From NCBI GenBank assembly GCA_018806915.1, contig JAGKQI010000009.1, positions 186,001 through 250,000 of the forward strand: a DNA stretch of 64,000 bases, read 5' to 3'. Shown one piece after another: positions 1 through 45,491 of this stretch. Made by a program: the position numbers and the translations under genes. The notes beneath the pieces are model-generated. The model worked only from the letters and a program-made list of their open reading frames with translations, was not told where the DNA came from and did not search any database. Source of the DNA: Phytophthora colocasiae. Lineage: Eukaryota > Oomycota > Peronosporomycetes > Peronosporales > Peronosporaceae. Every line of letters begins with the position of its first letter. Positions within the stretch are counted from its first letter, which is position 1.

Positions 1-283
1 TTCGCTGGACAAAGTCTAGCGCACCCGAGCTGAATCCTTTCAGCTTGTCGCCCTTGTCAGCAGCAGGCCCTGCCTGCTCGCTATCATCTCTCATGTCTGT
101 GCCCGGCACAGACATCGCGCGCTTGTTCCTGCTCGAACGAGACGTCGCACGCGTCACCGCAGCTGATAGTGTGCTGCTATCAGTTGCATTCTGCGGTTGT
201 TCGGACGCAACCGTAGATCCTCCCCCACTTAAGGAGGAAGCTACCCTGCCGAGCATGCTCGGCAATCGTGGATGCCTCATGGC
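1..283 (-). pseudogene. Integrase C-terminal tail of Gypsy-A copy A1, out of frame and cut by the window edge
   Basis: On the minus strand a reading frame continues the A1 integrase after a break near 283. It resumes at residues like NAMRHPRLPS, which match the C-family NGLAHPRVPL segment after the integrase core. About 16 residues equivalent to INNAVHASTGFTPFYV are missing, so a deletion of roughly 50 bases with a frameshift separates it from the core. The frame runs open to base 1 through a Ser/Ala/Gly-rich stretch equivalent to the linker before the GPY/F region. The GPY/F motif and any chromodomain would lie left of the window. No function is expected. Confidence 0.6.
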
Positions 284-3200
284 GTTTGGCAAACTCTGCC
301 ATCGGCAAGCACTCGCTCCAGTGCGGGAACGAGTGAGCGTAGCTCTTCAACGTGTCACCCAATACACGGTTGACACGTTCGGTCTGTCCGTCCGTCTGCG
401 GATGATCCGCAGTCGACATTGATAGCTGTGAACCAAGAAGTGTAAACACTTCTTGCCAGAACCGCGCTGTGAAGCGTGGATCACGGTCCGACACAATGTC
501 GAGCGGCATGCCATGGTGTTTGAACACCATGTCAACAAACAGTCGCGCAGTCTGCGCGGCTGTAACAGTAGCTGGGACGGCAGCAAGATGAACCATCTTA
601 CTGAATCGGTCCACAAAGACAACGATGCCCGTCCTCCGCTTGCTGTCAGGCGGAAGACCGAAGACAAAGTCCATGGACATGGACTGCCAACACTCCGACG
701 GAGTCGGTAGTGATTGAAGAGGAGCCTGCGAGAGCTGCGCAGGCTTCACGCGTTGACAAACCTCGCAAGCACGTACGTACTTGCGCACCCACTTGTACTG
801 GTGGTGCCAGTAGAAGTCACGCGTGAGAAGAGTGTATGTCTTCTCACGACCCGGATGCCCTGCCGTGGGGGCATCGTGATACTCGAACATGATCCTCAAC
901 CGGAGGTCATGATCATTCGGAACGACAATGCGATCCGCATTGTCGTCTACTGCACTGTACAACAGTAGGCCTTCGTGTACACGATAGCGGTGTATACGAG
1001 CTCGAAGATGAGGGGTTAGCTTCCGACGTGCCACGTCGGAAGGTGCTGCGAGGAATTCCAGCAGCCCCTTCGCGTCTGCATCCCTTGCATACGCGTTCTT
1101 CACGTCGTCAACCAACGTTGACGACGGCACACTTGTCCTCACGACGCCAACAGCGTTGGCGTCGACTGTCTCCGCATAGTCAGGTCGACGCGATAACGCG
1201 TCAGCCACTACATTGAGTCTTCCGGGTTTGTACTCCACCCGGAAGTTGTACTCCGCGAAGAAGGACAACCATCTCGCCATACGTTGCGAGATGTGCGGCG
1301 ACTTAATCGCCGTACGCAATGATGCGTGGTCTGTATAGACCACGAACGGTCTACTCCCAAGTAGATACACTCGGAACTTTGCGAGTGCATACTTCATGGC
1401 AAGGAGCTCCTTGTCATGTACGGGATAATTACGCTCAGCTGGCTTCAGCTGACGCGATTGATAATAGACTACACGATCACGCCCTTCGTGATCGTGTTGC
1501 ATCAATGCACATCCGATTGCAAAGTCGGATGCATCGCACACTACGTGGAATGGACGATCTTGGTCCGCTACGGCCAAGATCGGCGCTTCAGTCAAGCCCT
1601 GCTTGACTGCACCGAATGCCTCCTCGCACTCGGTCGTCCAAATCCACTCAGCTTCTTTCTTAAGAAGCTGTGACAACGGGCGAATCTTGCCCGCATAGTT
1701 GTCCACGTACTTGCACAAGTACGTGGCAAGCCCAAGGAACTGCCTCAGTTCCTTCACATTGGATGGCGTGGGCCATTCATTGATCACTCTGACCTTCTCT
1801 GGGTCAGGGCGCACGCCGTCTTTCCCCACGAGACACCCCAGCACGGGTATCTCGCTCGCCCCGAAGATACACTTCTTCAGGTTCGCATAGAGCTTATGTT
1901 TCCTCATAAGCTCTAGCAGCTTCCGGAGATGCACCTTGTGCATCTCAATGTCCGTCTTCCCGTTCACAGCCCGGCTGTGGACGAACACGTCGTCAAAGTA
2001 GCTCGGTGCGAAGTCGCGCACCGAGCGCAATAGATGTGTCACGCATCTATTGAACGTCGCAGGGGCGTTCTTAAGCCCCTGTGGCATGACGAGCCACTCC
2101 CAAAGCATACCGCTTGGAGTGCTTACCGCTGTGAGAGGGATGTCCCTCTCACGCATGAGGATTTGATAGAATCCATCACGCAGATCTAGAGCACTGAAGA
2201 TAGTGCTCAAGGCCATCGAATCGATGATAACATCTTTTCGCGGTATCGGCGTCTGCGCCGGTATCGTCGCATCGTTCAACTTGTTGTACGCATGAACGAT
2301 GCGCCAGCCGCCCTGTGGTTTCTTCACACAGAACGTTGGAGCACTGTGCGGGGACTTTGACTCCCGCACTTGACCTGCAAGACGACGACTTTCAAAGAAG
2401 TCGTCGATCGCTTGCACTTGTTCACGCGGCAGTGGCCACTGCCGTGTAACACAGTACTTCGTGCCCGGCACGAGATCAATCTCGTGCTGTACGCCCTTAT
2501 CCTTCGGAAGCTCCGAAGGAATCTTGTCCGGGAGTACATCCTTGTACTCCCGCAGAATCTCGTAATAGGGACTCGACTTCAACGAGTCCCAACTCTGCTC
2601 CTCGAAGCGTTGCTTCTTGGTCTCCGCACTGAGGGGGCCATCGCCCTCAGTGATGCCATCGACGACGAGCTGCTTCAGCTCTTCGGCCTCGCGCTCCACT
2701 CTCTCGATATCCGAGAAAATGCAAATTTGTTCGATGCGTCCATCGTACAAGTCTCGTGCGAAGCGCTTCCAACTCATCGTTGGAAGTGCGGTCAACGCCG
2801 ACGCACTCGTCGGCGGATTCTCCAACCGCATCCTCTGGTACTGTAACCCAGTACCAGTACGTGTCAAGACGTTCAACGTCTCGACACTCGGTGTCTGCAC
2901 TGCAGATACACCCGTCTCAGTCCCGGACTGAGACTCGCGCAGCTCCCTGAGCTTGCGCCGCGAAGGTCTACCGTGGAGCCCGGCTCCAGGTGCTCCACGT
3001 CCAAGGCATCGCACCTTGGACGGGACGTTATCGCAATCGTCAGCGGATTCCTTCCGCTGACTCGCACTATCAAGCCCGGCTTGAGTGCCGCTCATCGCGT
3101 GCAGCGCTGCTGCACGTGAGCACGCAGGTTGTTCGGGTGCTGGGCGTTTGCAACCGCCAGCACCTCCTGCCGCGCAGTCGGTTCCCTGAACCGCTGCGCC

Positions 3201-4274
3201 TCCATCCGTTCCCAGAGCGGATGTACGATCGCTAGTTCCCGGAACTAGCAGCGACTGTTCGCCTATACACGTCTCATCAGCTCCCGGAGCTGATGACCGA
3301 TCGCTAGTTCCCGGAACTAGCAGCGAAGCGCCAGTGGCGTCAGCTCCCAGAGCTGACGCACGCCTTTCGGTTCCCCGAATTTTATTTACTTCGTCAACTC
3401 CCAGAGTTGACGCGACGTCGTCGGCGCGACCCTTGGGGGCTTGAAGTACCTCCAAGGATACCGGTAATACCGGTATTTTACCTTCTCTCAGGTTCACCTG
3501 ACCATCACTCATGTGACAAACATCATTCAGATGTTTATGCATCAGGTGATTCACATTCACCTGACCATCACTCATGTGACCGCGACCCTTCGGCTCAGAT
3601 TTCTGAGTCGACACACATTTTCTCCCAACGACTCCCTGAGTCGCTGGCGGTCGCCGGCAGCGATCGGAGGCAGCAGCGGACGCTGTTGCCTCAACTGGGG
3701 AATCACATGCACCGCCTGGTGCATGTGCAGCACTGACAGGGCCATCGCTCTCTGTCGCGCATGCGTTGTTGAAGCGTACGAGCGTACGCTTCTCCCAGTT
3801 GATCACCGGGTCATGCCGTGCAAGCCATGGCATGCCTAATACCAAGTCGAACTTATCGTCTAGATCCAAGACGATAAGATCTTCTACAAACGTCCTTCGT
3901 TTGTAAGAGAAGCGCACACGGACTACGCGCTTCTCAGTCCTCACGGTGGCACCTGTTGCCAACCGCACCTCCAACACGCTGCGAGGCGTGTCGGCTTCTT
4001 CGAAGTCAAACCTTCGAAGACTTCCCTGTCGAACAAAGTTGTTCGACGCGCCCGAGTCCACTAGGGCACGAAGAGAGTTCACTCTCTTCGACATCACGTT
4101 CAGGATGACAAGGTTTGGCTTGTCATCTTGCAGCTTACAGCGAGAAACCTTCTCGCTGGGGGCAGCAGTCCTCATCGTCGCGTGTCCAAGCTCGACACGC
4201 GAGACTGCATCACCAGTAGGACGCCCCGCGCCTACTGGTCCTTGGCGTTTTTTGAACGCCCGCCCGCTGTGCAC
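180..4274 (-). pseudogene. pol: Ty3/Gypsy pol polyprotein (protease-RT-RNase H-integrase), copy A1
   Basis: This 1364-residue frame codes for the enzymes of an LTR retrotransposon. The retropepsin active site is ALVDSGASNN (Asp near residue 73). A long low-complexity linker follows, rich in LVPGTSDR-type repeats. The reverse transcriptase has its catalytic YFDD near residue 759. The RNase H begins at VVCDASDFAIG (about 910). The integrase has an HHCC zinc module (HPGREKTY to CEVCQRVK, about 1135-1175), then core acidic residues in SMDFVFG, SDRDPRF and DGQTERVNR. The nominal start is GTG and there is no upstream ATG, so expression would be by -1 frameshift from the overlapping gag. The last ~30 residues are out of frame after a deletion near 283, so integrase is broken. 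The sequence is packed with short inverted repeats. Family assignment is firm; the copy is dead. Confidence 0.93.
4212..4253 (-). promoter_or_regulatory. Programmed -1 frameshift site, gag-pol of A1
   Basis: On the minus strand the gag codons TCA AAA AAC contain the canonical slippery heptamer A_AAA_AAC in the gag frame (4247-4253). Seven bases (GCCAAGG) separate it from a perfect 9-bp stem ACCAGTAGG / CCTACTGGT (4231-4239 and 4212-4220) with a 10-base loop. The gag stop codon lies inside the stem. Shifting back one base gives the pol frame exactly. This is the textbook X_XXY_YYZ, spacer, stem layout. The function is inferred, not measured. Confidence 0.82.
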
Positions 4275-5752
4275 TCGCGTGCATAGTGACCGATGTTACT
4301 ACACTTGTAACATCGAACCTTGCTGTTCTTACGCTGCTGTTGACCAGCAGTCGTAGCACTCGAGAGGTCCATAGGTTCCGGACCTCCCGTCTTCACAACA
4401 GGACGCGCCGGCTTCGGTGCGTTCGCATGGAGTTTAGCTTGACGTCGGCTAAACTCCTCTTGCATCGCAAGGCTGATCGCCTCTTCGAGAGTATTCGGAT
4501 ACTCTCGGAAGAGATATGTTTTGACGGGACCATCTCTTAGTCCCTTCATGAACGTGACGACCTTGGTCGCCTCGTCGATCGGGTTGGCCACTATGTTCGA
4601 TACCAAGTATCGAGCTCGCTGGGCAAAGGTGTGGACATCATCCTTGCCCTGCTGCAGATCGAGAAACTCCGCTCTCGATCTGAACTCGTTCTTCGGGGGC
4701 TCAAACGCAAGCTTGAGCTCCTCTTTGAACACCTCGTACGTGCTGAAGCACGTAGGATCCGAGAGTCGGCGCCCATAGGCCCAACTCCTCGCACGTCCGC
4801 CAAGACATGACATGGCGAACGCGACCTTCGACATCGGATCGACGATACGTCGAGCCGCAACGGCTGTGTCAAGTTCGACAAGCCAACGAAGGAGGGTCTC
4901 GTCCTCCTTCCCCGTGTAGGTACTCACGTGGAGTTTCAACGACTCCACGCGTGGCTTCGGGGAAGCCACCGAGGCAGCAACATCTCGTTGCTCCTTAACA
5001 ATGTACCCCAGAGCAACACCGTGTTGCTCTGTCGGCGATAGCGTACGAAGCATCGTCGCTACCGCTGCCTCTCCAATGACTTGTGAAAGTCTTTGGAGAG
5101 CTTCCCACTCTGGATCTGACAGGTGGGCCAGAGCCTCGATCATGTTCGCTGGCTCTGGAACGTTCGCGTTGGGATCCGCCCGGTTGGCACGCCGAGAGAC
5201 CACACCGGGATACCAACGAACCGCATCTACTGCCGGAATGGGGAGGTGAAGGAAGAACGGATCCAACAGGATGTCGAGGTCGAACCACTGATTGCGCATC
5301 ATGGCGGGGAAGGAGGCGAGGAATTGGCGCCAAGCAGACCCAGCCCGACTCCGCCTGGCCTTGCGAGCGACGTAATACCGCTGCAGTTCAAGATCCGCGG
5401 CTTGCATGGCAGAGGTGATCTCGAGGTTATGGGTGGACTCCCAAAACGCCTGACGGTGCCGTTCCTCAAGTACGCGATAAGTGGCGGCCAAGGCCGCGAG
5501 GGGTGTTCCCTCCCTCTCATGCAAATCGAGGTTGAACGTGAGGGGACCCGGGTTCGCGATGTCGTTCCACGGCTCCTGGGCCATCAGATCGAGCACGTTC
5601 ACGCCACTGATCAACTCGTTGAGATAGTCGGTGCCGGGGGTCGGCGCGAGTCCAGCCTGCATCCGAGAGGGGAACAGCCAACCCGAGGGGATCAACAACC
5701 GTTTGGCCAAAGAGTTGGCGATCAGGCCCACGATCGAATACTGCCCGATCAT
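4232..5752 (-). pseudogene. gag: Gag of Gypsy-A copy A1 fused to a foreign N-terminal domain
   Basis: The C-terminal 290 or so residues are a Retrotrans_gag-type capsid (from AHLSDPEWEALQ through TYTGKEDETLLRWLVELD) followed by one CCHC zinc knuckle, CYKCSNIGHYAREC, near the end. This part matches copy A2 at 9582-10526. The first ~210 residues do not. They match the antisense ORF of element B (shared PWDP, KRLL.P.G, WEST...LEITKAM and LLDP.FLH motifs). The join lies near 5125, at the word CCCACCTG. At the same place the sequence changes from GATC-rich to hairpin-rich, which supports recombination between two element types. The frame stays open upstream to about 6155, so the listed ATG at 5752 is not the true N-terminus. 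The stop is in the frameshift stem. Confidence 0.8.
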
Positions 5753-6819: not shown

Positions 6820-7279
6820 TGTAATGGGGTTACACGTACGAGTGGTTGTACCACTTGTAACTCTAACAGTTAGGATAACTGTTAGAGGTTGGAAATGGGC
6901 CTCAGACCTTGGTGTGCTGTACACACCAAAGGATACATGGGCAAACCACATTATTGGGTGGTTCGTGTGCATTTGTGCATATTATTGGTAGAAAGTAACG
7001 GATTTCTACCAATCACTGAGCAGAGTTTCTGCCAACCACACGTTGGCAGACCCTTTAGAAATAGATAACAAACAGTTTTAGGAGGTCCATAATTGGCTTA
7101 TGCCAAATTCAATAACAGTTCTCATTTTACGGTATTTTGCAGTTTAATTTAGTTATATTTGATTTAATTATACTTATTTAAATAAGTATACTTAAATTAA
7201 GTCTAATCTACTTGCACGCTTCCTCATACACGTAAGCGCACGTGTACGCCATCTAATAGGTCTAGGTATACCCATTACA
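6820..7279 (+). repeat. LTR of Gypsy-A type, full length (460 bp)
   Basis: The segment begins TGTAATGGG and ends CCCATTACA, a perfect 9-base terminal inverted repeat with TG...CA ends. Its last ~180 bases recur at 9317-9496. A primer-binding site follows immediately, so this is a 5' LTR in plus orientation. Its element is truncated soon after the leader. It abuts the coiled-coil ORF on the left. I could not identify a target duplication because the right end is lost. Confidence 0.75.
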
Positions 7280-7280
7280 C

Positions 7281-7344
7281 TGGTAGCACTTTGTAGTCCG
7301 TCCCACGACCGACTGCTGTTCGTTCGTATGGAGTCATACGAACG
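7281..7344 (+). promoter_or_regulatory. Primer-binding site and leader hairpin of an A-type element
   Basis: One base after the LTR comes TGGTAGCACTTTGTAGTC. It starts with TGG, as expected for a tRNA 3'-CCA complement, and its first eight bases match the complement of eukaryotic initiator-tRNA-Met ends. At 7321-7344 a perfect 10-bp hairpin follows (arms CGTTCGTATG and CATACGAACG, loop gagt). The same pair is present at 9499-9562. The hairpin could be a packaging or dimerisation structure; that is inference. Confidence 0.6.
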
Positions 7345-7351
7345 CGGGGTA

Positions 7352-8167
7352 GGCGCTGGGGTCATTACAGACTGTCCCGAGGTATTTGCCCATGTACTCG
7401 AGCTCGTGCTAGTCGTACTCTGGCACGCATTTTATTGGCTTGTTGGTGCTTGACTTGTACTACTGCTCATCTTACTTCCATCCTTGAGCTAACGCGTAAG
7501 TGCCTACTTGATCGAACAGCAAGGCGAGCGACTGCAGCACATAGGAACTAGTTTCGTGATTCAAGACCATGAGATGCCTCGGGAATTAGTGACTCAATTT
7601 GACCTCTCTTTTCGACAAGGGATTCGTCCTAGTCTACAGTAAGTGAAGAACGCACTACTTTCACGGGACGAAATGGAAAATAATGGATACGGATTCTGCA
7701 TCGAGTAGTGGCGCACCGAATGACAACAATGGAGTGGCTATGCATATAGGACAGCAGTCTCAGAGGCGGAACGTAGGTCAAGGGGTAACTTCTGGGTCTA
7801 ACCAAGGCCAGAAGGAACAGGTGAAGTCTACTGGCGCAGATAAATGATGCGCAGTTCGTTGTTATCATTGTCATAATTTAGGACACATGCGACGAGACTG
7901 TTGGCACTTCCAAAATAAGCAGACAAAAACTCAGCAGTTGAAGAGTAATTCGCGTAACAACGAGAAGAAGAAGGCCAAAAAGGACAAAGGTGGAAGCTCA
8001 ACCGCATAACTCACCGACTACTGGTACAGCTGGCTACATACGGTTTGTGAAGACTGTGAAGAATGAAGAGGTGAGCAGTAGTTCGGAAGGTGAAGACCTC
8101 GTTGGAATGGCGATACGTAAAGACAGACACGGCTCCAGAGGTGACTCGATGTTTGATTCAGGCACTA
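7352..8167 (+). pseudogene. Degenerate gag/protease remnant, probably Ty1/Copia
   Basis: No intact ORF remains. At about 7683-8010 one frame reads a Gln/Asn-rich segment, a stop, then CYHCHNLGHMRRDC, a CCHC zinc knuckle, and a Lys-rich tail. After a frameshift, 7990-8167 reads on to SMFDSGTM, which resembles a retropepsin DSG active site. Weak gag-like sequence (TQFDLSFRQGIRPSLQ, about 7580-7640) precedes it with stops. CCHC then DSG order suits Copia, but Gypsy cannot be excluded. The C3 LTR starts directly after the DSG-like motif. Bases 7352-7500 show nothing recognisable. Confidence 0.45.
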
Positions 8168-8465: not shown

Positions 8466-9316
8466 ATGGAGCCAGAAGCATACGCTCACTTGACTCCGAG
8501 TCAGCGGGACACGCTTAACAAGCTCACGTCCTTGCTGGGCCCAGAAGGTATGGCGCTCCTTGCGTCCCAAGGGCCGGAGGCCGTCAACGCGCGCCTCGAG
8601 GCATTTGCCTCGTACGAAAACGCTCTCGTCGAGCACATTCAACGGAATGTAAAAGGGGTTACCCCCGCTCCGAGAGCTAAGCCCGTCATGCTCAGCGTGA
8701 AGACCTTTCACAGGAAGGAGGGAGAGAACCTCCTGTTGTGGACCCGAGAGGTCGAAATGGCCATGGGGGCCGCTATGCTCCAGTTGGAGGGCAACGCGTG
8801 GCGTTCGCCATCTCTAAGCTCGAAGGGCGAGCACGGGAATGGGCCTTGACGTCGGGGACGTCGGTAGAAACGGTCTTCCCCACTTGGGGTGAGCTAAAGG
8901 CCAAGCTCATTGGTAAGCATGGCCTTCGTGCTGATCCAGCAAAGGTCAAGGCCATTGTGGACTGGCCGGTTCCCTTGAACCAGAAAGACTTGCGTAAGTG
9001 GCTGGGCTTGGCCAACTACTTGCACAAGTACAGCGAGAACTACGCTGAGTTGGCTCGGCCACTGTCGGATCTCCTTAAGAAGGATGCCGAATGGGTATGG
9101 CATGCTGAGCACGAGAGTGCGTTCACTCGTATCAAGGATAGCCTGCTTCAGGCACCGATACTGGCGTTGCCAGACCCCGATCGTCCGTTCATCGTCGTCT
9201 GTGACGCCTCGGACTTTGCCATCGGCAGTGCTTTGCTACAAGCGGACGCCGAAGGGCGCGAACGCGTCATTGCGTTTGAGTCTCGGCAGCTCTAGGCTGC
9301 TGAGAAGAACTATCCA
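8466..9316 (+). pseudogene. Gypsy-C copy C3: gag fused to RT/RNase H by an internal deletion
   Basis: The ATG at 8466 begins the C-family gag ([19 protein letters not shown]). A frameshift lies near 8790, where an AACGCG reading replaces the GGGCAACGCG of C2. At about 8909 gag (WGELKAKL) jumps straight to the palm/thumb region of RT (IGKHGLRADPAKVK), deleting the rest of gag, protease and most of RT. The thumb-like LGLANYLHKYSENYAELARPL and the first half of RNase H (VVCDASDFAIGSALLQ) follow. A TAG replaces Lys after SRQL at 9293. At 9317 the sequence is joined to an A-type LTR fragment. It has no coding capacity. Confidence 0.85.
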
Positions 9317-9496
9317 TGCCAAATTCAATAACAGTTCTCATTTTACGGTATTTTGCAGTTTAATTTAGTTATATTTGATTTAATTATACTTATTTAAAAT
9401 AAGTATACTTAAATTAAGTCTATTCTAATTGCACGCTTCCTCATACACGTAAGCGCACGTGTACGCCATCTAATAGGTCTAGGTATACCCATTACA
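9317..9496 (+). repeat. Truncated A-type 5' LTR (3' 180 bp) of copy A2
   Basis: The sequence from TGCCAAATTC to CCCATTACA matches the last 178 bases of the LTR at 6820-7279, with a couple of small indels. The first ~280 bases of the LTR are absent. The left edge is fused to the C3 remnant, so the LTR was truncated by deletion or recombination. Confidence 0.75.
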
Positions 9497-9498
9497 CC

Positions 9499-9562
9499 TG
9501 GTAGCACTTTGTAGTCCGTCCCACGACCGACTGCTGTTCGTTCGTATGGAGTCATACGAACG
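9499..9562 (+). promoter_or_regulatory. Primer-binding site and leader hairpin of A2
   Basis: TGGTAGCACTTTGTAGTC lies two bases after the LTR fragment. The 10-bp hairpin (arms CGTTCGTATG and CATACGAACG) is at 9539-9562. Both are identical in type to the copy at 7281-7344. They precede the A2 gag ATG by 20 bases. Confidence 0.6.
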
Positions 9563-9581
9563 CGGGGTAGAGAACTCCCCA

Positions 9582-10526
9582 ATGGATGAGGGATCCGCTG
9601 GGACCCCTCACATGTCCGTGACGCGCACGGACTGCGCCCACCTGTCTGATCCAGAGTGGGAAGCTCTCCAAAGACTTTCACAAGTCATTGGAGAGGCAGC
9701 GGTAGCGACGATGCTTCGTACGCTATCGCCGACAGAGCAACACGATGTTGCTCTGGGTACATTGTTAAGGAGCAACGAGATGTTGCTGCCTCGGTGGCTT
9801 CCCCGAAGCCACGCGTGGAGTCGTTGAAACTCCACGTGAGTACCTACACGGGGAAGGAGGACGAGACCCTCCTTCGTTGGCTTGTCGAACTTGACACAGC
9901 CGTTGCGGCTCGACGTATCGTCGATCCGATGTCTATGGTCGCGTTCGCCATGTCATGTCTTGGCGGACGTGCGAGGAGTTGGGCCTATGGGTGCCGACTC
10001 TCGGATCCTACATGCTTCGGCACGTACGAGGTGTTCAAAGAGGAGCTCAAGCTTGCGTTTGAGCCCCCGAAGAACGAGTTCAGATCGAGAGCGGAGTTTC
10101 TCGATCTGCAGCAGGGCAAGGATGATGTCCACACCTTTGCCCAGCGAGCTCGATACTTGGTATCGAACTTAGTGGTCAACCCGATCGACGAGGCGACCAA
10201 GGTCGTCATGTTCATGAAGGGACTAAGAGATGATCCCGTCAAAACATACGTCTTCCGAGAGTATCCAAATACTCTCGACGAAGGGATCAGCCTTGCAATG
10301 CAAGAGGAGTTTAGCCGGCGTCAAGCTAAACTCCATGCGAACGCGCCGAAGCCGGCGCGTCCTGTTGTGAAGACGGGAGGTCCGGAACCTATGGACCTCT
10401 CGAGTGCTACGACTGCTGGTCAACAGCAGCGTAGGAACGACAAGGTTCGATGTTACAAGTGTAATAACATCGGTCACTATGCACGTGAGTGCACAGCGGG
10501 CGGGCGTTCAAAAAACGCCAAGGACC
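9582..10526 (+). pseudogene. gag: Gag of Gypsy-A copy A2, native 5' end, frameshifted and 3'-truncated
   Basis: The ATG at 9582 follows a complete leader and gives what I take as the native family-A start (MDEGSAGTPHMSVTRTD, then AHLSDPEWEALQ). The capsid domain and the CCHC knuckle CYKCNNIGHYAREC near 10450-10490 follow. A one-base loss in a G run near 9757 (GGGG in A1, GGG here) breaks the frame after VALG. The reading continues from YIVKEQRD in the next frame. The slippery heptamer AAAAAAC survives at 10509-10515. The stem after it is lost because the copy is joined at 10526/10527 to an inverted fragment of element D. Confidence 0.85.
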
Positions 10527-11203: not shown

Positions 11204-11664
11204 TGCAGCGGGGCTGCGTAGGTGTGCACCGCACAGAGGAAGTTTAGTTGACTCGTAGAGTCCTGCTTGCAAGGCACTAGCCTTCGGTTCTATACAAGAA
11301 CCTAGTAGTCCACTAAATACGGGACTCACAGAGTCAGGGTCCCTATAACAAAGGACTAACACTAACTATGTAAAATGCAAACTGATTTTTATTGACTTTA
11401 TTGCCCTAATCCTAAATGTAACGGATTTAGTATCTAGCATACTAAATCCTAATTAAAATGCAATGTGTGGCTCTGAGGCCATCTACGTATCTACTCGTGT
11501 GTGTCACTCCATTATGTACCCACATAAGTGTATCTTGAGTGTCACACACCATTATATACCCACATAAGTGTATCATGAGTGTCACACACCATTATGTACC
11601 CACATAAATGTATCCACGTGTGTCACACACCAACGAGAGACATTCGTGTAACATCCCCGTTACA
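11204..11664 (-). repeat. 3' LTR of C1 (461 bp)
   Basis: It is the reverse complement of the C LTR (TGTAAC...GCTGCA). It is 40 bp longer than its partner at 45492-45912 because the TATGTACCCACATAAGTGTA-type unit is present three times (11500-11640) instead of twice. Several substitutions separate the two LTRs, more than in B or C2. An 11-bp stem (GGATTTAGTAT / ATACTAAATCC) lies near 11430-11456. Confidence 0.9.
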
Positions 11665-11676
11665 CTCTCCCCCACC
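11665..11676 (-). other. Polypurine tract of C1
   Basis: On the minus strand GGTGGGGGAGAG directly precedes the 3' LTR. This is the expected position of the plus-strand DNA primer. The same tract precedes the C2 3' LTR at 44755-44766. Confidence 0.75.
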
Positions 11677-12575
11677 AAGATTCCGGATACCGTATCCGGA
11701 AAGTGTATACACACGACGCGATTATCGGCCGATGGCCACGGCACCTTGCCTTGCGCGGACGGCGCTGTCTCTCGTGCGTGTTACACGCCTCCGTACGCGA
11801 TGCCACTTGGTACACACTTGGGCCCAATGCTTACCAAGCATAGGAGCCTACTGGCTCGAGTCAAGGGGCTCTACGGGCATGGAAAGAAGGCCACAGGTGG
11901 CGTATCTATGATACTAATGGATCAGTGATCCACAGGGCAAGCCTTCCAAGCTACCAACGGTTCCACGAACCACACAGCAGTGGGGCCCACTCGCTTCACA
12001 GTTAATGTGACCCTCGGATGAGCACTGTGTGCAGGGCTTGATGCCCAAGTTGTCCTTGAAGCAGGCGCAAGCGCCACTATGTGTCACAGACACTGTGTCT
12101 TGTGAATACACGTGCTCAGCACAGTCATAGACACGACAACGAGCACCAGACAGCTAAGCTGTCGCTCAGGAGGAGCTTACCTACCTCCTACTGCTATGCA
12201 GCATGCGGGGTCCAACGCATTGGCATCCCTGGTATCCACAGTGCCTCATGACATAGTCATACCCATTGAACGCTTCTAGCGTCAGGTGATCGGATAGAAT
12301 CCGTTTCCATCACCACTTGCCGTTTAGACAGAACGTCATTAAGACGGTTGTTCGTCACGAACCATCTTCGCTTCATGATCGCGAAGCTCCGGACCATAGG
12401 CCAGTGTTGTTAAAGGGTCAAAGACCCTTGAAACACGCGCGCGAGGCGCATGTAGCTCTACTGCGCTTGCAGTTTGAGCATTCGATGCCACGTCGACGGC
12501 ACCGACGTGCTCGCTGCAAGTATTGCAGCTACGGGTCAGAGCCTGAGCTCAGCAACGACCCTGTGGACTCCCACC
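11677..12575 (-). pseudogene. Cys-rich decayed reading frame between chromodomain and 3' LTR of C1
   Basis: There is no intact ORF in this 0.9-kb stretch. On the minus strand the frame homologous to C2 43861-44517 reads Cys-rich patches separated by stops. These include ECSNCKRSRATCASRACF (near 12450-12510) and a 65-residue open piece at 11914-12111 with CACF, CTQC, HCC and a final CGS. The stops are shared with C2. Short hairpins are dense, for example AGGGTC / GACCCT near 12415-12430. It occupies the place where an env-like gene would sit, but I cannot name a family. Confidence 0.45.
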
Positions 12576-13688
12576 TTAGTGGGAGGTGCTTGGCGCCCGG
12601 CGACTCCGTCGCACGCCCACCGGGCGGTCTGACACCGGGTGTGCCCGATCATACGCGTCAACGACGTCGGGGCAATCCTGCCGTAGTGGCACCTCGAACT
12701 CCCACGAGTTTTGTGAGTGAGGGTAACCTCGCCACTTCACCAGATACTGGTTGTGTCCTTGGCGACGACGCCGCGCCATCAGGCGATCCACGTGATAGTG
12801 AAGCTCACCTTGCTCATCGAGCAGAGCAGGAGGAGGACGAGCGGTCGATGGGTTCTCGCGCTGCGAGTGTAGACGCGCTGCATTGCTTGCAGACCCGCGT
12901 CGGCTCGGTGAAGGAGCATGACCACCACGTCGGTCATCCGACCCATCGCTTAGCGACTGGTCTCGAGGAGACCTAGAGTCGCGGGGACCGGTCTGAGTCG
13001 CCTCTGGTGCTGCATCAGCGGGTCTAGGACCTCGAGCATCACGTTGCTCCGGATTGACAAGACCTGTTGGTTCGGATGCAACCACCTGTGGCTCTGCCAC
13101 CTGCTTCCGTGCAGCCTTCGTCCGACCCGGCGCCAGCGCCTCAGAACTCACAAGAGCAGGGTCCCGATATGGCTTAAGCAAGCCCACGTAGAACACAGGA
13201 TGTGTTCGCATACGCTTTGGCAAGTCAAGCGTGTATGCCAGGCCCTTCTTGGCCACGACCGTGAACGGTCCAATGAAGCGCGGCCGCAACTTCGTCTTGA
13301 AGACGGCTGACACTGCGTGTGTAGGCAGGTTCTTAGCGTTTAATAAAACGTGGTCACCGACCTTGAACTCCCACATGTTGCTTCTGCCTTTGGCATCAGC
13401 TTGTTCCTTTTGAACATCTTGGCTTTCAGCCATTGCGTCACGCACACGGCGTAAGACGCTAAGCCTCATCGAGAGGAAGTCATCGACTTGCTTGCGAACA
13501 GCAAGGGGGCTGACATCAGCAAGCTCGGAGTCGAGCGACGGCACAGCCTCTCCCCCACCAAGCCCAAGGCTACCGCGTGGCGGAGTGAGCGGGACGCGCG
13601 GATGCGCAAGGCCGTTCACGTAGAACGGGGTGAAGCCTGTCGAGGCATGCACCGCGTTGTTCATTGAGAACTCAACGAGAGGGAGCAT
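12576..13688 (-). pseudogene. Integrase C-terminus and chromodomain of C1 pol
   Basis: This frame begins in the integrase (MLPLVEFSMNNAVHASTGF) and continues through the DNA-binding tail (FKVGDHVLLN, then the GPY/F-type KLRPRFIGPFTVV). After a Ser/Arg-rich linker comes a chromodomain (LHYHVDRLM, YLVKWRGYPHSQNSWEF, CPDVVDAYDRAH). Chromodomains in chromoviruses are thought to guide integration to marked chromatin. It should be continuous with the upstream pol but is separated by a 10-bp deletion near 13735. The start ATG is internal and not a real translation start. Confidence 0.9.
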
Positions 13689-16600
13689 AGCGCTCCAACG
13701 CTTCGGCGTTTCAGCGCATACGCTGCGGAGGATACGCGGTTCACGCGTTCAGTCTGACCGTCGGTCTGCGGATGATCCGCCGTGGACATGTCCCGTCGAG
13801 TGCCAAGCACTTTGAAGACGGACGTCCAGAAGTGACCCGTGAAACGGGGGTCTCGATCCGAGACAATGGTCTCTGGCAGCCCATCCTGGCGGAAGACACG
13901 ATCGATAAAGATCGTCGCTGTACCAGCGCCATCGACGGTGTCCGGCACAGCCGCTAGGTGAGCCATCTTGCTCAGACGGTCAACAAAGACCACAACGCCC
14001 GTGTTGCCTGCCGTATCCTTCGGCAGGCCAAACACGAAGTCCATACTCATGGACTGCCAACACCCAGAGGGTACAGGCAAGCTCGCCAAAGGCGCTGCCG
14101 CATGCGGCGAGGGTTTAACCCGCTGACACGTCTCGCACGTGTGCACATATGTGCTGACCCACTTGTACATCCTCGGCCACCAGTACATGGAGCTCACCGA
14201 GCCGTAGGTCTTCTCGCGACCGAGGTGGCCGCTTGTGGGCGTGTCGTGGGCCTCATAGAGGATACGATACTTCAGGTCCTCATCGTGAGGACCCACCACA
14301 CGTGGTGGGTCATCCTGACCCGTGCTGTAGTACAGCAGACCGCCATCCAGGCTATAGCGTTGGAGTCTCGCCTTTAGGCGTCGTGACAGAGTCACATTTG
14401 AGTCCTTAAACTCATCGCTCCCTAGAGCTTGAAGCAGCGCGACACAAGAGTCGTCCTGAGCGTACGCTACTCGAACCATGTCCGTCACGGACGACGTCAC
14501 TGAGGTGACATGAGATAACTCATAGTCCGGGCGACGTGATAACGCGTCAGCGAGGACGTTCTGCCTGCCAGGCTTGTACTTCACCTCGAAGTTATACTCC
14601 GCAAAGAAGGAGAGCCATCGGGCCATCCTCTGCGAGAGGTGAGGCGACTGCGTCGCTGTGCGTAGTGACGCATGATCCGTGTAGATCACAAACGGCTTGG
14701 AGCCGAGCAGGTAAACCCTGAATTTGACGAGAGCGTACTTCATCGCAAGTAGCTCCTTGTCATGAACTGGATAGTTCTTCTCAGCAGCCTTGAGCTGTCG
14801 AGACTCAAACGCAATGACGCGTTCGCGCCCTTCGGCGTCCGCTTGTAGCAAAGCACTGCCGATGGCAAAGTCCGAGGCGTCACAGACGACGATGAACGGA
14901 CGATCGGGGTCTGGCAACGCCAGTATCGGTGCCTGAAGCAGGCTATCCTTGATACGAGTGAACGCACTCTCGTGCTCAGCATGCCATACCCATTCGGCAT
15001 CCTTCTTAAGGAGATCCGACAGTGGCCGAGCCAACTCAGCGTAGTTCTCGCTGTACTTGTGCAAGTAGTTGGCCAAACCCAGCCACTTACGCAAGTCCTT
15101 CTGGTTCAAGGGAACCGGCCAATCCACAATGGCCTTGACCTTTGCTGGATCAGCACGAAGGCCATGCTTCCCAATGAAGCACCCTAGGAAGGGGATTTCT
15201 TCCGCGCCAAAGACGCACTTGTCTGCGTTGGCGTACAGCTTGTTCGTGCGCATGCACTCGAGCACTGCTCTCACGTGTTCCACGTGTACCTCGACATCAG
15301 TCTTCCCGTGCTCAGCACGACTGTGGACGAACACGTCGTCAAAGTACGTCTGTGCGAATGCCCGTAGGGGCCTGAACAACTGCGTCACTAGACGATTGAA
15401 CGTTGCAGGCGCATTCGACAGCCCTTGGGGCATGACGAGCCACTCCCAGAGCATACCGCTCGGGGTGCTCACCGCTGTAAGCGGAATATCACTGGCTCGC
15501 ATGAGCAGCTGATAGTACCCATCGACTAAGTCGAGCGCACTGTACATGGTGCAACCCACCATGTTGTTCTGAAGAACGTCCTTCCTAAGAATCGGTGTCT
15601 GCGCCGGAATCGTGGCAGCGTTGAGCTTGTTAAAAGCGTGAACGATACGCCACTTGCCATTCGGCTTTCTGACACAGAACGTTGGCGCGGAGTGCGGAGA
15701 CTTGCTCTCGCGCACGAGACCCGCCGCGTGCTTAGCACGGAAGAAGGCGTCAATGACGTCGCATTGCTCTTTAGGAAGAGGCCACTGCCGGGTCACGCAG
15801 TATTTAGTTCCGGGAACTAAGTCGATCTCGTGACGAACGCCTCGGTCAGGAGGCAGGCCACTCGGTGGTTCCTTTGAGACAACGTCTCCATATTCCTTCA
15901 GCAAGGAGTGGAAGGGATCCGAGGGATTCTTGAGGATCTCCGATCCACTCCTGGCGTTCAACGCCTTCTTGACTTCGGCCAAGACGGACTCGTCAACGAG
16001 GGACGACGAGTTTAACTCCTCCTCAGGTCGAACGATGACCACCTCGGCGAATTCGCCAGCCTTCAAGGCATCGCCAAAGTCGGCGAAGGACATCTCTTCT
16101 AGCTCAAGGAGCTTGTCAACACTTGGCAAGTCGTCCAGCAGGACACTGCCTTCGGCACTACCGCCCACTCCATCAACCAGAGTGTATAGCTGCCCACAGC
16201 CCTCCGGTGCGTCGGCACTTGACGTCACGGATGACTCAGACGCAGAGCGTCTCGCCCGAAGGGCCTTACGACGTCTTCGCCTAGCCGAAGATCGTCTACT
16301 CGACGGAGTACGTGCCGTCGCACAAGTTTCGGCCTGGTAAGGCCCGATGCCATCGGCATCCAGTGACGGTCCATGACCGGCGTCACTCGGGTTACGTGAG
16401 CTTTGCCCACACGTTGACTCACTGCCAACCAGCGCTATGCGCTCAACAGGACTGCGGTCCTCGCACTCGGTGCTGTCCACCAACTCGGACACACCGACTT
16501 CCAGCATCATAGCCGACTCGGCTCGATGCTCGCGCCAATAGCGCTTCTGCTTCCTAGCAGAGGTGGGTTCATGACTCGCCAAAGCTCCACTAGGAGAGAA

Positions 16601-17206
16601 GTGCGTAGCACCTAAGGTCTTCGACCTCCAATCAATCCATGGCTCGTGGCGCTCCAGCCACGCCATGCCAAGGATGAGGTCGTACCTCGAATCCAGGTCC
16701 AGGACCAAGCAGCGTTCCACGCTATCGAAGTCCAAGAACTTCAGCCGCAGGTCCATGGGGACCTTGGCCACCGTGACACGGACGCCCGTCGCTAGACGGA
16801 CTGTGACTGTGTCACCTCTTCGCGCTCGAAGCGCCTCAGCATATTGATGACTACCTTCAACGGTGGAGCGTCTGACGTAATTGCCAGACGCCCCCGAATC
16901 GATCAACACGATCCACGGCTTCTCAAAGCCCTTCACGTCCACCTGGACGACCAGCAAGCCCTTCTTGCTCACACGTTCCGTGTTCAAGAGCACGGAGCTC
17001 TTCGGGGCTGAGCCCCAGTGCCTCTCACGCACTGCAGAACTCAGTTCTTCCCCAGTAGACCGCCCCGCGTCTACTGGGAGCCGGCGTTTCCCTGGGCAGA
17101 GCCCAACGCGGGACCCGCGGCAGGGTTGCGGCCATTTTGGCCGGCGCGCTCTTTGCGCAGAGGGCAGTTGGGCCTCAGGTGTGAGGGACTGCCGCATGTA
17201 TAGCAC
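13661..17206 (-). pseudogene. pol: Ty3/Gypsy pol of C1 (protease-RT-RNase H-integrase)
   Basis: The 1181-residue frame has a retropepsin site VLIDSGASGN (Asp near 108) and a variable linker with about one and a half of the 31-residue repeats seen in C2. RT carries FCVRKPNGKWRIVHAFNKLN and the catalytic TYFDDVFVHSRA. RNase H starts at VVCDASDFAIGSALL. The integrase zinc module runs HLGREKTYG to CETCQRVKP, and the core has acidic residues in SMDFVFG, SDRDPRF and DGQTERVNR. After NRV a 10-base deletion (present as CCTGGAGGAC in C2) throws the frame to a stop. The pol frame is -1 to gag and is reached by the shift site at 17086-17092. Confidence 0.93.
17051..17092 (-). promoter_or_regulatory. Programmed -1 frameshift site, gag-pol of C1
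   Basis: In the gag frame, CAG GGA AAC contains the slippery heptamer G_GGA_AAC (17086-17092). A 7-base spacer (GCCGGCT) leads to a perfect 10-bp stem CCCAGTAGAC / GTCTACTGGG (17069-17078 and 17051-17060) with an 8-base loop. The gag TAG is inside the stem. The geometry equals that of A1 although the heptamer differs. Confidence 0.83.
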
Positions 17207-17891
17207 CGGCGGGTGCTCATACGCTGCACCGCAGCTCGTAGCTCAGCTACCTCATCTTCAGCATAGCTGAGGTCCATGGGCTCGGGTCCACCGGACCCTG
17301 TGCTGATAGCACCGACCCTCGACAACTTAAAGTTGTGTTCGGCATTCAATGCCACGCTGACAGCATCTTCGAAGCTGTGGGGATTCTGACGGAATGTCTC
17401 CGTCCTGGCCACGCCAGCTCGTAAGCCTTCCATGAAGACTGTCACGGCGACCACCTCAGGTAGAGGGTCGGCAGCCATGCCAGCAATGAGCGTGCGCAGC
17501 TCTTGGACATAGTCCACCAGATCCTTCTTGCCCTGGCGACAAGCAAGGAAGCGTGACCGCACGCGATACGCCTGGTTAGGCGGAGCAAACACTTGCGTGA
17601 GCTTGGCCTTTAGCTCGCCCCATGTGGGGAAGGCCGCTTCCACCGACGTCCCCGACGTCAAGGCCCATTCTCGGGCTCGTCCTTCGAGCTTAGAGATGGC
17701 AAACGCCACGCGTTGCCCCTCCAACTGGAGCATGGCGGCCCCCATGGCCATTTCGACCTCTCGGGTCCACAACAGGAGGTTCTCTCCTTCGTGCCCGTGA
17801 AAGGTCTTCACGCTGAGCGTGACGGGCTTAGCTCTCGGAGCGGGGTTGACCCCTTTTACATTCCGTTGGATGTGCTCAACGAGAGCGTTTT
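17071..17891 (-). pseudogene. gag: Gag of C1, 3' part (5' part at 45284-45434)
   Basis: This is the major part of a capsid/nucleocapsid protein: [22 protein letters not shown], then [22 protein letters not shown], and a CCHC knuckle [14 protein letters not shown] near the C-terminus. Element B inserted after base 17891. Joining it to 45284-45434 and dropping one TTTT copy gives an uninterrupted 323-codon frame, so gag was intact when B arrived. The N-terminal residues that appear to precede ALVEHIQRN here are B's LTR read in frame and are not gag. Confidence 0.9.
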
Positions 17892-19209
17892 TGTGGTGGA
17901 GCGGATCTGGCCAAAATCTGGTTGAGGCCGATCGCGATCGCCACTTGCGCCCAGACACCGACTAACGGAGGGGGTCCCCCGATGATCCGTGATCTTGCTG
18001 CGTGTAGTGTTCACCTTGTGTACCCGTCGGTAGGCGGGTTACGCTCTTCCAGGTGACTTCTGAAGATGTCTTGGGACGAGAAGAATGTCTTGGGTGACGC
18101 AGGGGTGGTGAGATAGCGTGGGAATACTTCACTCTACCTCGGAGGGGTTGATCCGGGTCACAGGCGAATACTCGAGCCTTGATCCGGTCGCCTGATCTTC
18201 GATCTAGGTCTTCCAAAGGTCCAATGTTGGGGATCTGGTCCCTTCCTTTACGATGCTTGCCGCTTCCTATAGCGGGTGTCTTGATGGGTTGAGAGTCGAC
18301 GAGATCGTCAGGCCAAGCAGCCAATTCCTTCCGATCCGTAGTTCGCACGTAAAGGATAGATCACTAGATAGGGTAAAACTGGCCAATGTATTATCCAGAA
18401 TTAACCTCTATGCTAGATCTCTTCTCCTTACCTTCTTGATGCTGGTAGGCCAATGTAATTCCCGGTTCCAGTCTTGGATGAAGGCACTTGTGAGGTCCAG
18501 AGCAAATTCGATTCTGTTTATGGTTATTCCTATGTCTACTAGCCCCATCCTCATCTGCTATCCTACGATTACCTGACATCCGGCTACACAGCTGCCCCTC
18601 CGATCTTCGATCTTGATCTCACCTAACCCCTGATCGCGATCTCGATCTGCCGATCTGGCGATCAGCCGATCTCGATCAACCATCTCGGTCATCGATCTTG
18701 GTCCACCGTCTTGAACAATGATCTCGATCAGCAGCCTTCATACTTGATCTCGCGTGCCTGTGTCGTCGACATTCCAGGTCTTGAGCTTCCCGGACTTGAT
18801 CACCACTCCCCATGCGACTAACACTGCCATCAGGTCCCCTCGGCAGCATCTCACGGTTATGTTGTCACCGGCCCACCATAGATCGCACCGGTCCCGACCC
18901 TCTGCTGCCTTGATCTCCTTCTCATGCGATCTCAGGCAAGGCGCCCTTTTCTCCTCCGACCCTGAGCCGCCACGCGGGACCGCACGGCGGGTTCTCCAAT
19001 CACTTAGTCTCACTCGACCAAGACGCCATCCATTCATCGCTGGCGAGATCCAGACGAACATCGATCTGGATCCATTCGTCAGCCATCGTTCGCGCAATCT
19101 GGGGTCATCAACTGACATCTTGCTTCGCCAGAGGCCCCTGTCGCTTGATCCGACTCTCTCTGGGCCTGACGTTGCCTTTTCTCGGATTTCTTATTCGCGC
19201 TTCACCACA
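17892..19209 (-). repeat. 3' LTR of B (1318 bp)
   Basis: It begins TGTGGTG and ends CACCACA on either strand. It is a direct repeat of 36381-37611 joined to 45193-45279. GATC is extremely frequent, for example 13 times in 18601-18730. A purine-rich CTGGGGGCGGA on the minus strand at 19210-19220 is the candidate polypurine tract. ORFs within the LTR are not conserved as proteins. Confidence 0.92.
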
Positions 19210-37611: not shown

Positions 37612-38032
37612 TGTAACGGGGATGTTACACGAATGTTTCTCGTTGGTGTGTGACACACGTGGATACATTTATGTGGGTACATAATAGTGTGTGACACTCA
37701 TGATACATTTATGTGGGTACATAATGGTGTGGCACACACGAGTAGATACGTAGATGGCCTCAGAGCCTCACGTTGCATTTTGATTAGGATTTAGTATGTT
37801 AGATACTAAATCCGTTACATTTAGGATTAGGGCAATAAAGTCAATAAAAATCAGTTTGCATTTTACATAGTTAGTGTTAGTCCTTTGTTATAGGGACACT
37901 GACTCTGTGAGTCCCGTATTTAGTGGACTACCTGGTTCTTGTATAGAACCGAAGGCTAGTGCCTTGCAAGCAGGACTCTACGAGTCAACTAAACTTCCTC
38001 TGTGCCGTGCACACCTACGCAGCCCCGCTGCA
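37612..38032 (+). repeat. 5' LTR of C2 (421 bp)
   Basis: It runs from TGTAACGGGG to CCCCGCTGCA. It has two copies of the 40-bp ATACATTTATGTGGGTACAT-type unit. A perfect 11-bp hairpin has arms GGATTTAGTAT and ATACTAAATCC (37787-37797 and 37803-37813). Confidence 0.95.
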
Positions 38033-38034
38033 TC

Positions 38035-38051
38035 TGGTAGCACTTGTAGTC
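38035..38051 (+). promoter_or_regulatory. Primer-binding site of C2
   Basis: TGGTAGCACTTGTAGTC lies two bases after the LTR. The TGGTAGCA start fits the 3' end of an initiator tRNA-Met; the rest does not extend that match, so the primer tRNA is uncertain. Confidence 0.6.
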
Positions 38052-38089
38052 AATCCAACTCCTGAGTTGAAGACTGTTTCTCTGTGAGA

Positions 38090-39059
38090 ATGGAGCCAGA
38101 AGCATACGCTCACTTGACTCCGAGTCAGCGGGACACGCTTAACAAGCTTACGTCCTTGCTTGGCCCGGAAGGTACGGCGCACCTTGCGTCCCAAGGGCCG
38201 GAGGCCGTCAACGCGCGCCTCGAGGCATTTGCCTCGTACGAAAACGCTCTCGTCGAGCACATTCAGCGGAATGTAACAGGGGTTACCCCTGCTCCGAGAG
38301 CTAAGCCCGTCACGCTCAGCGTGAAGACCTTTCACGGGAATGAGGGAGAGAACCTCCTTTTGTGGACCCGAGAGGTCGAAATGGCCATGGGGGCCGCCAT
38401 GCTCCAGTTGGAGGGGCAACGCGTTGCGTTTGCCATCTCTAAGCTCGAAGGACGAGCACGAGAATGGGCCTTGACGTCTGGGACGTCGGTGGAAGCGGCC
38501 TTCCCCACATGGGGCGAGCTAAAGGCCAAGCTCACGCAAGTGTTTGCTCCGCCTAACCAGGCGTATCGCGTGCGGTCACGCTTCCTTGCTTGTCGCCAGG
38601 GCAAGAAGGATCTGGTGGACTATGTCCAAGAGCTGCGCACGCTCATTGCCGGTATGGCTGCCGACCCTCTACCTGAGGTGGTCGCCGTGATCGTCTTCAT
38701 GGAAGGCTTACGAGCTGGCGTGGCCAGGACGGAGACATTCCGTCAGAACCCCCACAGCTTCGAAGATGCTGTCAGCGTGGCATTGAATGCCGAACACAAC
38801 TTTAAGTTGTCGAGGGTCGGTTCTAGCAGCACAGGGTCCGGTGGACCTGAGCCCATGGACCTCAGCTATGCTGAAGATGAGGTAGCTGAGCTACGAGCTG
38901 CGGTGCAGCGTATGAGCACCCGCCGGTGCTATACATGCGGCAGTCCTCACACCTGAGGCCCAACTGCCCTCTGCGCAAAGAGCGCGCCGGCCAGAATGGC
39001 CGCAACCCTGTCGCGGGTCCCGCTTTGGGCTCTGCCCAGGAAACGCCGGCTCCCAGTAG
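38090..39059 (+). pseudogene. gag: Gag of C2 (frameshifted)
   Basis: The ATG at 38090 starts [17 protein letters not shown]. The capsid region is intact through [20 protein letters not shown] and [15 protein letters not shown]. In the zinc knuckle a C run is one base short (GGCAGTCCTC against GGCAGTCCCTC in C1), so CYTCGSPHT ends at 38956. The second half of the knuckle and the linker continue in another frame to the original TAG at 39057. Otherwise it is almost identical to C1. Confidence 0.92.
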
Positions 39060-39079
39060 ACGCGGGGCGGTCTACTGGG
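39038..39079 (+). promoter_or_regulatory. Damaged -1 frameshift site of C2
   Basis: The stem CCCAGTAGAC / GTCTACTGGG (39052-39061 and 39070-39079) is intact. The heptamer has lost one G: CCAGGAAAC here against CCAGGGAAAC in C1. The X_XXY_YYZ pattern is gone. Confidence 0.8.
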
Positions 39080-39742
39080 GAAGCACTGAGTTCTGCAGTG
39101 CGTGAGAGGCACTGGGGCTCAGCCCCGAAGAGCTCCGTGCTCTTGAACACGGAACGTGTGAGCAAGAAGGGCTTGCTGGTCGTCCAGGTGGACGTGAAGG
39201 GCTTTGAGAAGCCGTGGATCGTGTTGATCGATTCGGGGGCGTCTGGCAACTACGTCAGACGCTCCACCGTTGAAGGTAGTCAGCAATATGCTGAGGCGCT
39301 TCGAGCGCGAAGAGGTGACACAGTCACAGTCCGTCTAGCGACGGGCGTCCGTGTCACGGTGGCCAAGGTCCCCATGGACCTGCGGCTGAAGTTCTTGGAC
39401 TTCGATAGCGTGGAACGCTGCTTGGTCCTGGACCTGGATTCGAGGTACGACCTCATCCTTGGCATGGCGTGGCTGGAGCGCCACGAGCCATGGATTGATT
39501 GGAGGTCGAAGACCTTAGGTGCTACGCACTTCTCTCCTAGTGGAGCTTTGGCGAGTCATGAACCCACCTCTGCTAGGAAGCAGAAGCGCTATTGGCGCGA
39601 GCATCGAGCCGAGTCGGCTATGATGCTGGAAGTCGGTGTGTCCGAGTTGGTGGACAGCACCGAGTGCGAGGACCGCAGTCCTGTTGAGCGCGTAGCGCTG
39701 GTTGACAGTGAGTCAACGTGTGGGCAAAGCTCACGTAACCCC

Positions 39743-44754: not shown

Positions 44755-44766
44755 GGTGGGGGAGAG
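44755..44766 (+). other. Polypurine tract of C2
   Basis: GGTGGGGGAGAG directly abuts the 3' LTR, the usual site of second-strand priming. Confidence 0.8.
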
Positions 44767-45187: not shown

Positions 45188-45192
45188 TCTTG

Positions 45193-45279: not shown

Positions 45280-45283
45280 TTTT

Positions 45284-45434
45284 CGTACGAGGCAAATGCC
45301 TCGAGGCGCGCGTTGACGGCCTCCGGCCCTTGGGACGCAAGGTGCGCCGTACCTTCCGGGCCCAGCAAGGACGTAAGCTTGTTAAGCGTGTCCCGCTGAC
45401 TCGGAGTCAAGTGAGCGTATGCTTCTGGCTCCAT
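45284..45434 (-). pseudogene. gag: Gag of C1, 5' part
   Basis: On the minus strand ATG at 45434 begins [20 protein letters not shown] and reads to ASYEN, where element B interrupts. It joins in frame to 17887-17071. Confidence 0.9.
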
Positions 45435-45489: not shown

Positions 45490-45491
45490 GT

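Follow-up and report, generated by a model that had tools for sequence, protein, structure and literature searches.

Two Gypsy retrotransposon lineages of Phytophthora colocasiae are saturated with perfect hairpins of lineage-specific stem length

We analyzed a 64,000-nt stretch of one contig (JAGKQI010000009.1), hereafter the window, from the 92.5-Mb genome of the oomycete Phytophthora colocasiae. It holds copies and fragments of Gypsy-A and Gypsy-C, two Ty3/Gypsy long terminal repeat (LTR) retrotransposons recognized by Pfam domains for gag, protease, reverse transcriptase (RT) and RNase H, followed by integrase. Both are saturated with short perfect hairpins, and stem length differs between them, being mostly 8-10 bp in Gypsy-A and 5 bp in Gypsy-C. 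Here we describe these hairpins, ask how they are maintained among copies, and weigh what could keep them in place.

Results

The A and C elements share about 63% nucleotide identity in their RT-integrase regions. A chromodomain is present in C according to Pfam, and neither A pol nor C pol has a Pfam match to an additional RNase H domain. The C2 copy of Gypsy-C is bounded by direct LTRs of about 424 bp each, and an A copy at locus L031, used below as a complete example, has flanking direct LTRs of 172 bp with 99.4% identity. Among the 120 of 3934 protein matches listed, Gypsy-A pol reaches 88% identity with P. cinnamomi and P. sojae proteins and 87% with P. ramorum. A previous interpretation of the window drawn from its letters alone (the sequence-only reading) had attached its observation to 180-4274. 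This interval does lie inside Gypsy-A; homology to A extends over about 1-5128, and 5129-6819 is not A.

Table 1. Features of Gypsy-A and Gypsy-C in the window
Feature	Coordinates	Strand	Basis
Gypsy-A body, running past the window start; 8-10-bp hairpins throughout	1..5128	-	95-99% identity to the L031 A copy, three blastn pieces
Gypsy-A pol ORF	180-4274	-	Pfam RT, RNase H, integrase and protease in the element
Gag domain of Gypsy-A	within ORF 4232-5752	-	Pfam
Hairpin cluster named by the sequence-only reading: 8 non-overlapping perfect hairpins, 7-10 bp	2346..2652	-	
A fragment, LTR and leader	6820..7352	+	98-99% identity to both ends of the L031 A copy
Second A fragment, leader and gag	9316..10526	+	95-98% identity to the L031 A copy; gag domain (Pfam)
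Gypsy-C copy C1, without 5' LTR here; 5-bp mini-hairpins throughout	11204..17894	-	96% identity to C2
Gypsy-C copy C2, both LTRs; 5-bp mini-hairpins throughout	37612..45190	+	mini-hairpin counts
C2 5' LTR	37612..38035	+	direct repeat, 99.8% identity
C2 3' LTR	44767..45190	+	direct repeat, 99.8% identity
C fragment, LTR and leader	45280..45912	-	97.5% identity to the first 633 bases of C2

Hairpins in Gypsy-A were defined by perfect arms of at least 7 bp around loops of 3-15 nt and compared with 100 synonymous-codon shuffles, a control that covered 16 regions hand-picked from a list of open reading frames (ORFs). The A pol ORF contains 68 such hairpins against 4.5 +/- 2.1 in the shuffles (at most 10 in any of the 100), and 41 of the 68 have arms of at least 9 bp. 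The sequence-only reading had described Gypsy-A as saturated with hairpins, and the excess proved stronger than it claimed. The stems that it listed in 2383-2590 all exist: 2383-2391/2398-2406 (9 bp), the palindrome 2427-2444 and 2568-2575/2583-2590 (8 bp) are as described, and the one given as 2529-2537/2544-2552 is longer, pairing 2529-2538 with 2543-2552 over 10 bp. Its stems of 6-7 bp at 2469-2486 and 2501-2519 are also present, with the lengths understated; they pair 2468-2475 with 2480-2487 (8 bp) and 2500-2508 with 2512-2520 (9 bp).

Saturation extends over the whole element. The 7.9 kb of the L031 copy, both LTRs included, carry 144 hairpins against 4.8 in dinucleotide shuffles (maximum 11 of 40), and with arms of at least 9 bp the count is 81 against 0.38. 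Hairpins per kb number 23 for each LTR, 11 for the leader, 13 for the first ORF and 18 for both gag-pol and the tail, with flanks near background (1.9 and 2.7/kb), and about 42% of the element lies inside hairpins. Arms of 9 bp are commonest and arms of 12 bp the longest; those of at least 10 bp occur in 17 of the 125 hairpins with loops of up to 12 nt, and most loops measure 3-7 nt. G+C content falls as A stems lengthen (rho -0.27, p=0.001). In the window, hairpin richness tracks A homology: at arms of at least 8 bp there are 63 hairpins in 1-5128 (12.3/kb, against 0.76 shuffled), 5 in 6820-7280 (against 0.12) and 9 in 9636-10526 (against 0.08), and the non-A stretch 5129-6819 has a background density of 0.6 long hairpins/kb.

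Gypsy-C carries hairpins of another kind. At arms of at least 7 bp, C1 pol has 9 against 3.4 (maximum 8 of 100 synonymous shuffles) and C1 gag has 1 against 0.9. Mini-hairpins, defined by a stem of 5-7 bp and a loop of 3-4 nt, number 64 in C1 pol against 10.6 +/- 2.7 (maximum 18 of 100) and exceed synonymous shuffles in 5/5 C ORFs tested; in A pol they number 36 against 13.2 (maximum 22). The sequence-only reading was thus right that C is saturated and mistaken about the type of hairpin, as the excess lies at 5-6 bp and is weak at arms of at least 7 bp. Both of its C examples are exact, 39239-39262 (7 bp, 10-nt loop) and, in the LTR, 37787-37813 (11 bp, 5-nt loop). Stems of exactly 5 bp are found 62 times with a 3-nt loop (4.6 shuffled) and 28 times with a 4-nt loop (5.8 shuffled), and counts drop over 5, 6 and 7 bp from 62 to 14 to 4, which roughly matches chance extension. 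The loop-closing pair is 5'-pyrimidine/3'-purine in 74% of cases versus 50% in shuffles. Mini-hairpin density is 18.2/kb in both 12576-17958 and 11204-12575 of C1, and in C2 it is 23/kb in the LTRs (10 per LTR), 18.9/kb in 38084-43855 and 18.7/kb in the 3' non-coding part. The 912-bp left flank of C2 has 0 mini-hairpins; to the right, 46000-47300 has 8 against 3.4, which ties the largest of 60 shuffles.

The two fingerprints recur outside these copies. Among 20 loci fetched from integrase-domain matches, 11 hold C by nucleotide identity and 7 (L001-L005, L008, L012) hold a further lineage, D, and both the A type and the C type reappear in 1-kb bins of the 20 loci. Across the RT-integrase region, hairpins of at least 7 bp occur at 16-18/kb in A and 1.4-2.8/kb in C; D is weaker, with stems of 7-9 bp at 3.3-8.1/kb versus about 0.8 shuffled. 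Other elements of the window, which the sequence-only reading had said lack the pattern, all fall within the shuffled range. At arms of at least 7 bp and 100 synonymous shuffles, element B has 7 hairpins against 4.0 (maximum 9), Copia 1 against 1.0, E 2 against 1.4 and the DNA transposon 2 against 0.6 (maximum 3). Mini-hairpins are likewise within range in B (19 against 12.4, maximum 22) and in E, Copia, the DNA transposon and two further ORFs. Neither of the outcomes that the sequence-only reading had named as refuting it, an equal density in shuffles or an excess in B or Copia, occurred.

Several simple origins were considered. Codon usage or composition as the cause is ruled out by the synonymous and dinucleotide shuffles, and duplication of a single hairpin unit by stem sequences that differ throughout; a local 52-bp repeat explains a few similar stems at 3203-3326. 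No clear common loop motif emerged.

We next turned to folding energy, strand and pair type. In 200-nt windows compared with dinucleotide shuffles, sense-strand z-scores are -6.2 for the L031 A copy, -6.2 for A in the window, -2.5 for C1, -1.3 for D (L005), and -0.2 for both B and Copia; with synonymous-codon shuffles they are -4.7 for A, -2.1 for C1, -0.75 for B and +0.8 for Copia. These scores, a check proposed by the sequence-only reading, place A and C1 below the shuffled controls. Folded under DNA parameters, A gives similar scores on its two strands (z -5.6 and -5.9, p=0.20). With RNA parameters the antisense strand of A folds better than the sense strand, and controls show a slight trend the same way. 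Were sense RNA the target, substitutions of Watson-Crick pairs by G.U should greatly outnumber those by A.C. Fixed single mismatches within A stems comprise 11 A.C and 8 G.T. In C, 5-bp stems that are entirely Watson-Crick number 131 against 15.9 shuffled, those with one G.T 29 against 23.0 and those with one A.C 28 against 19.8. The near absence of a G.T excess in C argues against sense RNA as the target, and tolerance of G.U pairs, which we took as the mark of sense-RNA helices, was found in neither A nor C. A sense-RNA structure is disfavored on these grounds. The pairing looks like a property of both strands, compatible with folding of DNA (single-stranded or extruded) or of both transcripts. 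The proposal of an element-wide ordered structure in A and C thus gained support, its specific form as sense RNA did not, and the single-stranded DNA that the sequence-only reading offered as an alternative fits better, given the Watson-Crick pairs and the DNA-parameter folds that are alike on both strands.

Variation among copies indicates that stems are maintained. The A comparison covered 2.5 kb of pol in 26 copies, those retrieved with that region from lists of at least 40 and at least 51 matches; 13 copies were used for C and 6 for D. In A, variants were called shared when present in at least 3 copies, and would then have passed through replication; private variants probably arose mostly after insertion. 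Shared variants occupy 3/768 stem columns of A pol versus 48/1743 others, and at third codon positions 2/261 versus 38/576 (p=7e-5). This depletion holds with other support thresholds and when stems are defined on one copy and variants taken from the others (leave-one-out). Private variants are much less depleted, at 62/768 stem columns versus 187/1743 others. Restricted to sites with a silent transition, the comparison gives 3/261 versus 31/580 for shared variants (p=0.004) and 20/261 versus 63/580 for private ones (p=0.17). Loops and spacers of A show no depletion. In C, shared variants at third positions occupy 3/154 sites in 5-bp stems versus 60/572 elsewhere (p=3e-4), or 7/170 versus 56/556 with a looser stem definition (p=0.018), and depletion is also seen for the pairs of the DNA-parameter fold.

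Private variants show a further pattern: they are denser in loops than in spacers among the A pol copies (L032-L045 and others; 40/258 versus 163/1616), and denser in loops at C third positions (15/53 versus 54/519).

Protein comparisons used near homologues (10 proteins of other Phytophthora, at least 80% identical) and far homologues (the first 25 with alignments longer than 600 residues). Where the near homologues differ from A inside a stem, the stem is still encodable in 97/184 cases versus a fraction of 0.33 at control positions, the cases from these 10 related homologues being non-independent. An apparent lower conservation of stem codons (0.64-0.67 versus 0.72-0.75 with 5 distant homologues over RT-integrase) was gone with 110 homologues over the whole ORF and was not used.

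Some A copies carry loops inverted with respect to others. One pol hairpin with 11-bp arms has the loop AAGGG in 24 and CCCTT in 2 of 26 copies; another holds both GCT/AGC (17/3) and GCA/TGC (3/1) inversions; a third shows GAT/ATC (25/1); and a tail hairpin shows GGA/TCC (18/1). A further pair, GGC/GCC (24/2), is ambiguous, the two loops being one base apart. In total there are 5 unambiguous inverted loops in 4 of 70 A hairpins (52 in pol, 18 in the tail), in 1-3 copies each, and the arms are 10-11 bp long in those checked. In C, the hairpins present in at least 4/13 copies yielded no inverted loop with 2 or more differing bases. In yeast genes, loop inversion at arms over 9 bp arises through template switching (PMC8604942). 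The A inversions indicate that these hairpins form while DNA is copied, by the element's or the host's enzyme. The 5' and 3' arms do not differ in amino-acid conservation, and directional copying by arm is rejected on this basis.

Three other features were noted in the window. Within element B, 26975-35823 holds three direct copies at a spacing of 3079-3080 bp, with 100% identity over the 300-nt pieces listed. An ORF at 5749-6972 (407 aa, without a Pfam match) lies mostly inside the non-A stretch between A fragments. Within C2, 39743-40147 consists of tandem repeats of about 93 bp that are 69-75% alike.

Discussion

The explanation that we lean towards, at a little short of an even chance, is that selection retains the stems of A and C because they let single-stranded copies, in our prediction the cDNA, fold locally. 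Under this model, the folded molecule would be DNA, presumably the cDNA made during reverse transcription, and purifying selection, rather than copying, would cause the depletion of variants in stems. Folding may compact or shield a long single-stranded intermediate and prevent it from annealing elsewhere, a putative function, and the differing stem lengths could reflect the demands of each lineage's own particle or RT. Selection is favored by the sharp 5-bp stems of C, the AT-rich longer stems of A, the loop-closing preference in C and the retained encodability of stems in related proteins. A bolder version, which we consider unlikely, is a structural code in which each lineage enforces its own geometry (in A, stems near 9 bp; in C, stems of 5 bp around loops of 3-4 nt) genome-wide, LTRs included, in the single-stranded DNA of reverse transcription, with a lineage-encoded factor that would read stem length.

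A number of our results weigh against selection for folding. Far homologues give no sign of stem retention (0.153 versus 0.123). A stems have somewhat fewer private variants, too (p=0.023). Depletion is in the same direction and non-significant in the non-coding tail of A (2/302 versus 10/543, p=0.23) and in D (7/242 versus 87/2002, p=0.39), where p<0.01 was reached in one of 11 pairwise comparisons, and it is absent from the few C hairpins of at least 7 bp (4/78 versus 74/2100, p=0.36) and from those of at least 6 bp (6/174 versus 72/2004). Compensatory changes from one Watson-Crick pair to another number 0/443 pairs in A pol, 0/151 in the A tail and 0/254 in C. Because a two-sided silent change is possible in only 22/376 A pol pairs, the coding test of such change is weak. 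Stems fall almost evenly into the possible registers in both A and C; silent changes by themselves thus did not give rise to them. With overlapping windows counted, A stems with a G.T pair exceed shuffles (18 versus 2.1), and those with an A.C pair do so more (46 versus 1.7); in D, G.T stands above A.C in small numbers (11 versus 6, 8 versus 5).

The same data bear on a template-switching ratchet, in which RT or a polymerase of the host turns back at near-palindromes and uses one arm as template for the other. Stems would thereby be perfected without benefit, with protein function as the filter and each lineage's polymerase setting its stem length. We consider this a serious rival, if fairly unlikely. 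The inverted loops of A and the strictly Watson-Crick arms are what such copying would yield, published cases exist of stems created or repaired by template switching (PMC8794818), and loop inversion at arms over 9 bp is known from yeast genes (PMC8604942). In lineage D, 5/121 pairs have exchanged both bases for a different Watson-Crick combination. A ratchet nevertheless predicts changes in both arms, of which A and C have none, albeit in a weak test for coding A; the two arms are equal in amino-acid conservation; the C hairpins present in at least 4/13 copies lack inverted loops that differ at 2 or more bases; and there is no known reason for a polymerase to favor the sharp 5-bp stem of C. 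The yeast inversions, moreover, arise in chromosomal replication, so those in A need not involve the element's own enzyme.

Selection could also act on something other than cDNA. Local hairpins in sense and antisense RNA might block annealing into long double-stranded RNA for Dicer and thereby evade silencing. Such evasion needs Watson-Crick pairing on both strands, as observed, and Phytophthora retrotransposons give abundant 24-30-nt small RNAs (PMC3804510), but B, E and Copia manage in the same genome without hairpins, and we judge this improbable. Quite improbable, in our view, is that the sense RNA has an ordered structure on the genome scale, like that of persistent RNA viruses, for packaging, stability or evasion of sensing: the strong folding excess and the maintenance of stems among copies agree with it, while G.U is not favored over A.C in A and is barely enriched in C, and the antisense strand of A folds better with RNA parameters. 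Finally, stems might in the single-stranded state escape damage or errors of copying, and variants would then be depleted without selection. Consistent with this, variant density in A pol climbs from stem to spacer to loop for both shared (0.004, 0.024, 0.047) and private variants (0.079, 0.101, 0.155). Loop counts are, however, inflated by inverted loops, and shielding leaves the existence of hairpins and their lineage-specific lengths unexplained; we regard this as very improbable.

We know of no element that is saturated end to end with perfect hairpins. Among the papers listed from the open literature, judged by titles and the starts of abstracts and with subscription papers mostly outside its scope, we found no report of hairpin-saturated LTR elements, and a search of viral contigs for DNA of other species gave no relative. 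Genome-scale ordered RNA structure is similar in that the folding excess of A and C over shuffles spans the whole element, coding regions included; it differs in that A and C are retrotransposons whose discrete perfect hairpins use Watson-Crick pairs only, have a stem length proper to the lineage, and occur on both strands and in the LTRs. Template-switch mutations at inverted repeats likewise involve perfect stems with inverted loops, but the known cases are scattered single events (PMC8794818, PMC8604942), compared with about 18 hairpins/kb over a whole element here, and unlike them A and C stems are poor in shared variants and lack two-sided changes. The genomic RNA of Ty3 and Ty1 offers a Ty3/Gypsy element with structured regions dispersed along the RNA; the accessible portion of that work describes Ty3 by regions derived from probing, together with a few short palindromes, rather than by perfect-hairpin saturation (PMC11381356). 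Oomycete Ty3/Gypsy groups such as Chronos and Archon share the host group, and a chromodomain is also found in C; A and C pol differ from these groups in having no match to the additional RNase H domain, and the word hairpin is absent from the paper on them (PMC5348765).

Two sister lineages with different stem lengths amount to a natural experiment. If confirmed, the hairpins of A and C would add a layer of constraint to retrotransposon sequence, at silent sites and in LTRs, and provide a fingerprint for sorting retrotransposon families, and they would open a route to test whether selection acts on the folding of cDNA rather than RNA.

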